Shown: in pieces, positions 48,914 through 51,292 of the stretch
Layout of the letters: every line of letters begins with the position of its first letter
Numbering within the stretch: position 1 is the first letter of the stretch
Origin: Stenomitos frigidus ULC18
GTDB taxonomy: Bacteria > Cyanobacteriota > Cyanobacteriia > Leptolyngbyales > Leptolyngbyaceae
NCBI RefSeq assembly: GCF_003003795.1
Contig: NZ_PVWK01000148.1
Location: 1-56,937, forward strand
Direction: 5' to 3'
DNA length: 56,937 nt
The notes under the pieces: generated by a model
Databases searched by the model: none
The model's input: the letters and a program-made list of their open reading frames with translations, nothing else
Told to the model about the DNA's origin: nothing
Translations under genes and position numbers: made by a program

Positions 48914-50542
48914 TCAAAACGAATACACCAGACGTAGCAACCATTCAAAGATAGTACCGCGATCGCGATTGTTGGGATTGCTGACAACGGTGAGTGCGGG
49001 GGTGACGCTGATGTTGTCGTTGAGTAGAAAGCTGTAAAACGCTTCGATGTTGGTTTGCGTAGCATTACCGAGGTCTTTTTCGACAAAGGGCTGCCCGATC
49101 GCCAGACCAGCAGTAGAGCCAGGCACGAACAACCGCCGTGCGACAAAACCGATCGACCAGCTTTTGGGATTTAGGTCGAGATCCTGGTTTAGCAGTGGGT
49201 TGAAGCCTTTGTAGCTGCCGATCGCGAAGCGACCAAAGACTGCGAAATCGCGATTGAGTGCCCATTCCGCATTAAGGCCGCCCGCAAAAATATCGACGTT
49301 ATTGACAGTGGCTTTGGTGAATTGCAGTCGGGCAACGATGTCTTTGCTGAAGTCATACTCGACTTCCAGACTGCCCTGGTGGCGATCGCCAAACAAGCCG
49401 CCTTTAGTGATGCCACTGTTAGGGCGTTCGGCATCGGCTGCGACATACAGTGCTCGTACGGTGAGCGGCAAGGTTGCAGCTTTCCAGCTGAGGGCAGCTC
49501 CTGCCCCGCCGGGGCGATCGATCTGGTTTTGGACAATCAGTGGGTTGTTGGTGAAAAAGCTGGAAGAGAAATTTTGGGTAGAGTCGTTTGCAAAACGGTT
49601 ACCGTCAATAAAGTCTCGTGGCGAGAGGCGTGCGCCCACGGTTAACTCCAATCCATCGGTAGGCTGAAAGGTGTAGTACAGCTTGCTCAGGCGTACTGCG
49701 TTGTCTACCCTGACATAGTCTAAACCACCGCCATCTGCCAGTAGACCCACTGTGCCCAGCAGGTTTTGCGCCTGTTCGTGAACCCGCCCGATCGCGTCGT
49801 TGCCATTGTTGCCAGCTTCTAGCTGCGTGCGGAGCAGGGTATTGGGCGCAAAGCTGGTCTTCAAATCTAAACGGGTGCGAGACAGGATGGTGCTGCGGCT
49901 GTTGGAGCCGTTTGTCAGCCCGAAAACGGTTTGTCCAACCAGTTTGGTCGTGGTGGAAAAGCGTTGCTGCTCAAGCTTGGTGATTTGTGGTTCAAGTTGA
50001 TCGGTGCGATCGCGCAAGTCCTTGGCGATCGTGGCGTAGGATGCCTGAAGCCGTTTCAGCGTCGCAAAATCTTCTTGCAGCTGCGCGATATTGCCCTGAC
50101 CAAGCACAAACTGCTGTGAGATAACATCCAGCACTTTTGCCAACGTGGCTGCAAACTCGTTTCGTGTCAACGCTTGGTTTCCGCGAAAGGTGCCATCTGG
50201 GTAGCCGATCGCCACACCGTACCGTTCGGAGAGCGCTTGCAAGGTCTGGTAAGCCCAATCTGTAGGACGCACATCGCTGAGCTCGCTAACCGATCGCACC
50301 TGCGCTATCGAGTCGTCAGGTGCCCATTCGCAAGCCGACTCAAGGATATCGGGCTGAATCGGTTGCGGTATGGCAGCACAATGCGATGAGGGGCGATTGT
50401 CCAGAGGCGCGGCTGCTGGCGTTTCTGTAACGTTGATGGACGACTCTTGCTGGATCGGTGTTGCCCACCCAGGCGATGTGGCGTTAAGCATCCCGAAACT
50501 GCCCAATCCTCCAACCAACCAGACTCTTTTTTTCACACTCAC
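48914..50542 (-). CDS. SLH-domain iron uptake porin (OprB type)
   Basis: 542 residues from the GTG at 50542, seven bases after AGGAG; an earlier in-frame GTG at 50557 lies inside the ribosome-binding region. A signal peptide comes first. An SLH domain follows (about 85-145, VRPTDWAYQTLQALSERYGV and FRGNQALTRNEFAATLAKVL), which binds peptidoglycan-linked glycan. A coiled coil (about 150-195) and an outer-membrane beta barrel ending in aromatic LRLVYSF complete it. Such Slr1908-type porins pass inorganic iron and other small ions. The ribosome-binding site is covered by a perfect complement of the Yfr1 RNA motif. Confidence 0.93.
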   Translation of the reverse strand: MSVKKRVWLVGGLGSFGMLNATSPGWATPIQQESSINVTETPAAAPLDNRPSSHCAAIPQPIQPDILESACEWAPDDSIAQVRSVSELSDVRPTDWAYQTLQALSERYGVAIGYPDGTFRGNQALTRNEFAATLAKVLDVISQQFVLGQGNIAQLQEDFATLKRLQASYATIAKDLRDRTDQLEPQITKLEQQRFSTTTKLVGQTVFGLTNGSNSRSTILSRTRLDLKTSFAPNTLLRTQLEAGNNGNDAIGRVHEQAQNLLGTVGLLADGGGLDYVRVDNAVRLSKLYYTFQPTDGLELTVGARLSPRDFIDGNRFANDSTQNFSSSFFTNNPLIVQNQIDRPGGAGAALSWKAATLPLTVRALYVAADAERPNSGITKGGLFGDRHQGSLEVEYDFSKDIVARLQFTKATVNNVDIFAGGLNAEWALNRDFAVFGRFAIGSYKGFNPLLNQDLDLNPKSWSIGFVARRLFVPGSTAGLAIGQPFVEKDLGNATQTNIEAFYSFLLNDNISVTPALTVVSNPNNRDRGTIFEWLLRLVYSF

Positions 50543-50548
50543 ACTGCT

Positions 50549-50559
50549 ACTCCTCACAC
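50549..50559 (-). promoter_or_regulatory. candidate Yfr1 small-RNA target site on porin mRNA
   Basis: The porin mRNA reads GUGUGAGGAGU here, the exact 11-base complement of ACUCCUCACAC, the invariant unpaired motif of the cyanobacterial sRNA Yfr1. It includes the Shine-Dalgarno AGGAG of the porin start at 50542. Yfr1 is known to base-pair with outer-membrane protein mRNAs in Prochlorococcus. Pairing here would block initiation. Confidence 0.6.
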
Positions 50560-50860
50560 GGTTTTTCAGGTCTGCCCATCCACAAAGACAGTCCCGGCTA
50601 AACCCTATCAGGAGTTTACACGGTCAATTCAGTAATCAGAAGAGGGGTAGGACATTTAACTATCAGCAGTCAGCGATCAGCGGTCAGCTTTTTCTTGATG
50701 CCTAATGCCTGGGTTTTGAGTAGTGCTTTGTGCCGCTGAGCCCGTTGGACACGCTTCGCGTTTCTTGGATGCCAGAGGCTCTACGCTAGAGAATTTTGAG
50801 TTTTGAGTTCGACCCCACTCTCTACTCCCTGCTGACTGCTGACTCATCGTCAGAACGCAT
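50560..50860. other. porin leader and repeat-rich spacer
   Basis: This holds the porin promoter and leader on the minus strand, then dispersed repeats: CAGCGGT-type units at 50660-50690, the interspersed repeat at 50752-50782 (second copy at 45848) and GAGTTTT units at 50793-50808. No gene seen. Confidence 0.5.
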
Positions 50861-51292
50861 CTAAACATTCGCTGTTTGAACCTGAGTGGCTTCCTGTGCT
50901 GCCGTTTGACCGCTCAGTTGAATCAGCTCAACTTTGTAGCCGTTGGGATCTTCGACAAAAGCGATCACAGTCGAACCGTGCTTCATGGGGCCTGGTTCGC
51001 GGGTGACTTTGCCACCCCGATCGCGGATCGCTTCACAGGTAGCGTAGATGTCGTCAACGCCGATCGCGATGTGGCCGTAGCCATCGCCCACATTGTAGGT
51101 GTCGGTGCCCCAGTTGTGGGTGAGTTCTAGAACGGTATGGTCGGCTTCGTCGCCGTAGCCAACAAAAGCGAGTGTAAATTCGCCACCGGGATAGTCTTTG
51201 CGACGCAGGAGCGTCATGCCGAGAACATCGCAATAGAACTTGAGGGATTCGTCCAGGTTGCTAACGCGCAGCATCGTGTGGAGTAGTCGCAT
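50861..51292 (-). CDS. gloA: lactoylglutathione lyase (glyoxalase I)
   Basis: Converts the methylglyoxal-glutathione adduct to S-lactoylglutathione. The protein has 143 residues. The metal ligands fall at the same positions as in E. coli GloA: His5, Glu56 (LELTH), His74 (GYGHIAIGV) and Glu122 (YKVELIQ). The C-terminal ten residues are an extension. The ATG at 51292 is chosen by homology, with a GAGAA site upstream; the longer frame adds 14 unrelated residues. Confidence 0.95.

Follow-up and report, generated by a model that had tools for sequence, protein, structure and literature searches.

Yfr1 is an sRNA whose invariant motif, ACUCCUCACAC, was proposed to match, possibly, a conserved element in other RNAs (PMC2190773). 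In Prochlorococcus MED4, the porin mRNAs PMM1119 and PMM1121 were pulled down with Yfr1, the PMM1121 leader conferred repression by Yfr1 in reporters, and this repression was relieved by Yfr2 in an E. coli reporter with the MED4 RNAs (PMC6778093, Lambrecht et al.). For Nostoc PCC 7120, reporter assays in E. coli showed repression of alr4550 (OprB-like) and alr0834 by Yfr1, murC was also a tested target, and the repression of murC and mraY was found to act through the region of the ribosome-binding site; the same report sets the carbon and nitrogen targets of Prochlorococcus against the cell wall targets of Nostoc, and regards Yfr1 of nonheterocystous filamentous strains as worth analysing (PMC6974561). 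A previous reading of the DNA studied here, made from the letters alone (the sequence-only reading), had described porin repression by Yfr1 as established in Prochlorococcus, which is correct, although it is not confined to that genus, as the Nostoc work demonstrates. Yfr1 control of porins is already known in both organisms, and the newer part of the present analysis is its breadth. No publication linking Yfr1, a porin and Leptolyngbya was found in a literature search that fell short of most subscription journals; two that link Yfr1 to OprB were retrieved.

The porin analysed here is encoded in a 56,937-nt stretch of the Stenomitos frigidus ULC18 genome (hereafter, the window), at 48914..50542 on the minus strand, flanked by clpB and by a gene for a lactoylglutathione lyase (glyoxalase); a glyoxalase C-terminal motif was also detected at most 700 nt upstream in 27/40 orthologous loci. 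The protein (542 aa) had been labelled an SLH/OprB iron-uptake porin, and profile searches agreed, with SLH and OprB domains both over their cut-offs and 234.6 bits against NCBIfam NF033921 (cut-off 100), from which the name 'iron uptake porin' is taken as an annotation of putative function.

The leader of this gene reads GTGTGAGGAGT, the full 11-nt complement of the Yfr1 motif, at 50559-50549 (minus strand), which is the sole exact match in the window; 0.04 were expected by chance and 4/100 shuffles had one. Within it lies the Shine-Dalgarno core AGGAG (50554-50550, anti-SD duplex of -8.8 kcal/mol), separated by seven bases (50549-50543) from the predicted GTG start codon (50542-50540), so that both the match and the spacing given by the sequence-only reading are confirmed. 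The GTG is in frame, the protein alignments of five same-genus orthologues begin at residue 2 or 3, and an automatic rule chose GTG in 32/40 orthologues. A second, partial Yfr1 complement, GTGTGAGTGTGAA, spans the start codon (50532..50544, minus strand).

A search of the host genome, which comprises 7.0 Mb in 167 contigs, for yfr1, as had been recommended, yielded one gene, with 59.7 bits compared to the gathering score of 38 for RF01116, so the sRNA gene is not missing from the host. It contains the invariant 11-mer, and its predicted fold consists of two hairpins with UUCACUCCUCACACCACAC single-stranded between them and the motif unpaired, in support, together with PMC2190773, of the earlier description of ACUCCUCACAC as the invariant unpaired motif. 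A yfr1 match was detected in 41/42 genomes of the order, host included.

The 11-mer of the porin site is present in 11 copies in the whole host genome compared to one for the reversed pattern, and these correspond to yfr1, one Cyano-1 RNA, four predicted gene starts and five other places. The latter are inside open frames or repeat-like sequence, and an Rfam search revealed no sRNA there. The gene starts are those of the window porin, a MurC-like Mur ligase, a DUF11 protein and a fatty acid hydroxylase. In the leader of the Mur ligase, which judging from its N-terminus we take to be MurC, a 14-nt perfect Yfr1 complement, GTGTGAGGAGTGAA, precedes the ATG (L004, 1501-1518), and GTGTGAGGAGTGAAAATG is present at this gene. 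As the reversed control was less clean in some genomes of the genus (7 vs. 6 in G035 and 11 vs. 6 in G037), the case made here is not based on raw 11-mer counts.

Three matches to Cyano-1 (RF01701), a name linked to the Yfr2 family in PMC8400943, were observed in the host, the third slightly below the gathering score. Near their 5' ends these RNAs read GTGTGAGGAGT, GTGTGAGGAG and GTGTGAGGAG, all three thus having GTGTGAGGAG(T) and sharing 10-11 bases of the porin-leader word. The host Yfr2-family RNAs bear this word, as would be expected of a Yfr1 titrator.

To rank the porin leader, it was compared within 456 kb of host genome, made up of the window together with 20 sampled stretches, in which 323 gene starts were predicted. 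No other leader matched the Yfr1 loop perfectly over as many bases as that of the porin (11; next, 10), in accordance with the previous claim that such a match at this place was unlikely by chance, and the porin had the second-best hybridisation energy. After a rough accessibility correction the leader was placed fourth instead of first, and the optimum was not the 11-mer itself but the partial complement that overlaps it and covers the start codon. The pairing of Yfr1 against the leaders that had been proposed as a check came out in favour of the porin in length and energy, but not in corrected rank, where the neighbouring register was preferred.

Two other leaders of this set ranked high. 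The strongest Yfr1 hybrid of the 323 (-24.7 kcal/mol) was that of a WbaP-type sugar transferase gene (envelope polysaccharide; 18103-17399, minus strand), whose leader, GTGTGGTGTGGATGTGTGAAGGAG, was second after accessibility correction, making it a candidate second Yfr1 target within the window. First by corrected energy was the G-rich leader of the gene at 42592-42104 (minus strand), perhaps as an effect of composition; its product, 163 aa long, falls into the 23S rRNA-intervening-sequence family (120 bits) and has a bAvd-like match under the cut-off, and bAvd proteins occur in diversity-generating retroelements.

Regarding leader structure, the Yfr1 site was unpaired in the centroid fold of a 101-nt leader and partly paired in its minimum-energy fold, likewise in a shorter fragment, and the 101-nt leader folded no better than shuffles (z -0.25). 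A weak hairpin was predicted immediately 5' of the site (50567..50596, minus strand), but in the seven same-genus leaders (g1) it showed no two-sided covariation and 94% of cells paired, equal to shuffles, so it was too weak to be claimed as a real element. In another genus (g12, L079-L088), an inverted repeat directly ahead of the Yfr1 site had 93% of cells paired and two two-sided changes, with 16/500 shuffles as good; it surrounds a TATAAC that could be a promoter instead, and this hairpin, too, was considered too weak to claim.

A leader block (50534..50624, minus strand) could be aligned in all seven same-genus orthologues including the window porin, L065 being omitted from the family alignment, and comparable conservation was absent further upstream in these seven leaders. 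Its upstream part (50567-50624) is composed of the conserved GTAAACTCCTGATAGGGTTTA plus the predicted hairpin. As the block begins about 65 nt upstream of the site, a porin transcript starting downstream of 50559 seems unlikely. A consensus scan of 50480-50900 detected no sigma-70 promoter or terminator.

The conservation of the site was then analysed in porin orthologues, taken as best matches with E of 1e-60 or better, without a tree, for which 40/42 genomes of the order qualified. In all comparisons starts were set by the same SD-favouring rule for porins and background, leaders L236, L244 and L253, which look like wrong starts, were still scored as misses, and P values overstate independence because each set is made up of related sequences. 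At least seven contiguous bases of the complement of the 20-nt Yfr1 loop were present in 27/40 orthologous leaders, and at least eight in 25/40. By word, GTGAGGA was found in 17/40 (5/571 in background leaders), GTGTGAGGA in 7/40 and the full 11-mer in 5/40, four of them within the genus. Among the seven members of the genus, all eleven bases are kept in four, ten in one, nine in one, and the remaining one has a single mismatch; GTGTGAGGA is present in six of the seven, and L064 lost AGGAG but kept GTGTGAGGA. Fewer than seven complementary bases were detected in 13/40 orthologues; genus g5 contributes its full set of four, and yfr1 is present in three of these. Thus, the sequences indicate partial conservation past the Shine-Dalgarno, strongest in the genus: the idea that the complement would be kept beyond AGGAG holds for GTGAGGA, also in paralogues, whereas the full 11-mer is rare and about a third of the orthologues lack the site.

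The relatives that have a name and share 79-82% identity with the porin (Tildeniella nuda, Stenomitos rutilans, Lyngbya sp. HA4199-MV5 and Leptolyngbya sp. ES-bin-22) are filamentous, and S. rutilans is classified in Leptolyngbyales. Of six further named relatives, leaders were available for five (all but L150). One of these, a MAG under the name Microcoleus vaginatus, has the full 11-mer, as AGTGTGAGGAGTACAATG, before an ATG; the species belongs to Oscillatoriales, the placement of the MAG being taken from its name. In the other four, Oscillatoria PCC 10802, Chroococcus, Richelia and L143, the site was not seen. The L063 leader carries tandem Yfr1 complements, GTGTGAGGAGTGTGGTGTGAG, over the Shine-Dalgarno and the start codon.

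The analysis was extended to the OprB family. OprB matches cover 16 stretches of the host genome, which amount to no more than 15 genes; subtracting two belonging to the window porin and L023 (wrong frame) leaves 13 paralogues. Three leaders with probably misplaced starts (L024, L025 and L027) and L210, the window-porin orthologue in G012, were kept in the complement-length counts and left out of the word counts. In three other genera (one genome each) 30/44 OprB matches were examined, and in 15 genomes, each from a different cyanobacterial family, 30/88, the best-scoring per genome first in both cases. At least seven complementary bases were found in 9/13 host paralogues vs. 15/322 other genes, and at least eight in 8/13. 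Among the best 30/44 porins of the three genera, these thresholds were reached by 23/30 (17/290 in other genes) and 20/30 (0/290), respectively, and among the best 30/88 of the 15 families at least eight bases were present in 23/30 vs. 4/303. Altogether, at least eight bases are shared by 51/73 OprB leaders examined in four genera of the order and 15 families, one of the 73 doubling as an orthologue of the window porin, which suggests a possible porin-wide, ancestral Yfr1 regulon.

As a control we used the reversed complement, in which the palindromic GTGAGGAGTG of the true one is retained. Counting at least eight bases, reversed and true complements gave 25 vs. 25/40 in the orthologues, 5 vs. 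8/13 in the paralogues, 9 vs. 20/30 in the three genera and 6 vs. 23/30 in the 15 families. Therefore, the orthologues alone cannot tell the true complement from its reverse, whereas the paralogues and the wider sets can.

The picocyanobacterial family offers a natural experiment, as, under stricter filters, no yfr1 match was detected in 42/201 of its genomes (14/131 good ones). Loss of the porin site was not seen in those examined: 7-9 complementary bases were present in 12/12 porin leaders from eight yfr1-negative genomes (two of the 12 being a tandem pair with identical leaders, and fragments L312 and L313 omitted), and likewise in 12/16 leaders from seven yfr1-positive genomes. This persistence is what would be expected if the leader word served porin translation independently of Yfr1, for instance by binding a protein, and Yfr1 and Yfr2 exploited it only in part. 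We consider this explanation improbable, though the best placed of the alternatives, for the following reasons. Yfr10, with the same motif, is present in Prochlorococcus SS120, once counted as lacking Yfr1 (PMC6778093), and may explain the sites kept in picocyanobacteria without a yfr1 match; one or two copies of the 11-mer are present in each of three yfr1-negative genomes (G066, G134 and G205), where they could belong to Yfr10, Yfr2 or a target. In addition, the register of the complement slides along the Yfr1 loop in the paralogues (TGTGGTGTGAG, GTGGTGTGAGGA), which fits pairing and not a fixed site.

It could also be argued that the leader holds only a strong Shine-Dalgarno and that the additional matching bases are chance or inherited, because the CUCC core of Yfr1 overlaps the anti-SD and any Shine-Dalgarno thus yields some complement; AGGAG is indeed found in 29/40 orthologous leaders, above any longer counted word. 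However, in a word count blind to Yfr1 (39 porin leaders vs. 571 background leaders) AGGAG was mildly enriched (9/39 vs. 63/571), whereas the top 8-mers were GGTGTGAG (14 vs. 0), TGTGAGGA (16 vs. 3) and GTGTGAGG (13 vs. 2), and TGTGAG was present in 26/39 vs. 4/571. Ahead of GAGGA, GT was found in 18/21 porin leaders compared to 4/43 others, so the selected part is the extension that matches Yfr1, outside the Shine-Dalgarno. Paralogues L015, L018 and L020 even keep GTGTGAG without AGGAG, and TGTGAGGA was detected in 18/30 porins of the 15 families (best 30/88) vs. 0/303. When complements were shuffled with AGGAG fixed, eight bases were matched in 0.65-4.06 leaders (means of four sets) vs. 8-25 observed, although single shuffles reached up to 26 leaders. 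A Shine-Dalgarno alone is therefore a very unlikely explanation. That the effective regulator is another sRNA of the same motif, given that in MED4 Yfr10 has this motif and part of its targets in common with Yfr1 (PMC6778093), is similarly doubtful, because a canonical Yfr1 is present in the host and the 11-mers of the host genome outside yfr1, Cyano-1 and gene starts coincide with no Rfam sRNA.

The above results support the interpretation of the sequence-only reading, with yfr1 present and the complement partly conserved, and we consider it likely that the leader of the window porin is a Yfr1 target, repressed at translation initiation. If both RNAs are expressed as we infer, the unpaired ACUCCUCACAC of Yfr1 would pair in the cell with GUGUGAGGAGU across the porin Shine-Dalgarno and block 30S binding, keeping the porin low, and the Yfr2-family RNAs would titrate Yfr1 and release it. 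As so many of the OprB leaders share the word, a single sRNA would adjust the levels of much of the porin family jointly. With somewhat less confidence, though still as the favoured view, we propose that most cyanobacterial OprB porins have their translation start marked by GGTGTGAGGA(GT), and that this word is copied in Yfr2 and reflects porin control as an ancestral, class-wide job of Yfr1. If true, one sRNA would tune much of the cell's porin set and the near-invariance of the Yfr1 undecamer would be explained; the word in porin leaders of 15 families would be one testable answer to the questions raised in PMC6974561 and PMC2190773.

Compared with the systems described, the window porin resembles PMM1119 and PMM1121 of MED4 in that those are likewise porin mRNAs, but it belongs to another lineage, and its predicted site matches at 11/11. 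The Yfr2-family RNAs of the host likewise contain the Yfr1-motif complement, as in other Yfr2 (Cyano-1) systems, although relief of repression was seen in an E. coli reporter with MED4 Yfr2 and is a proposed role in the host. With respect to Nostoc PCC 7120, a heterocyst former, the window porin can be likened to alr4550 as OprB-like, orthology apart, and both an OprB-like porin and murC are direct Yfr1 targets there.
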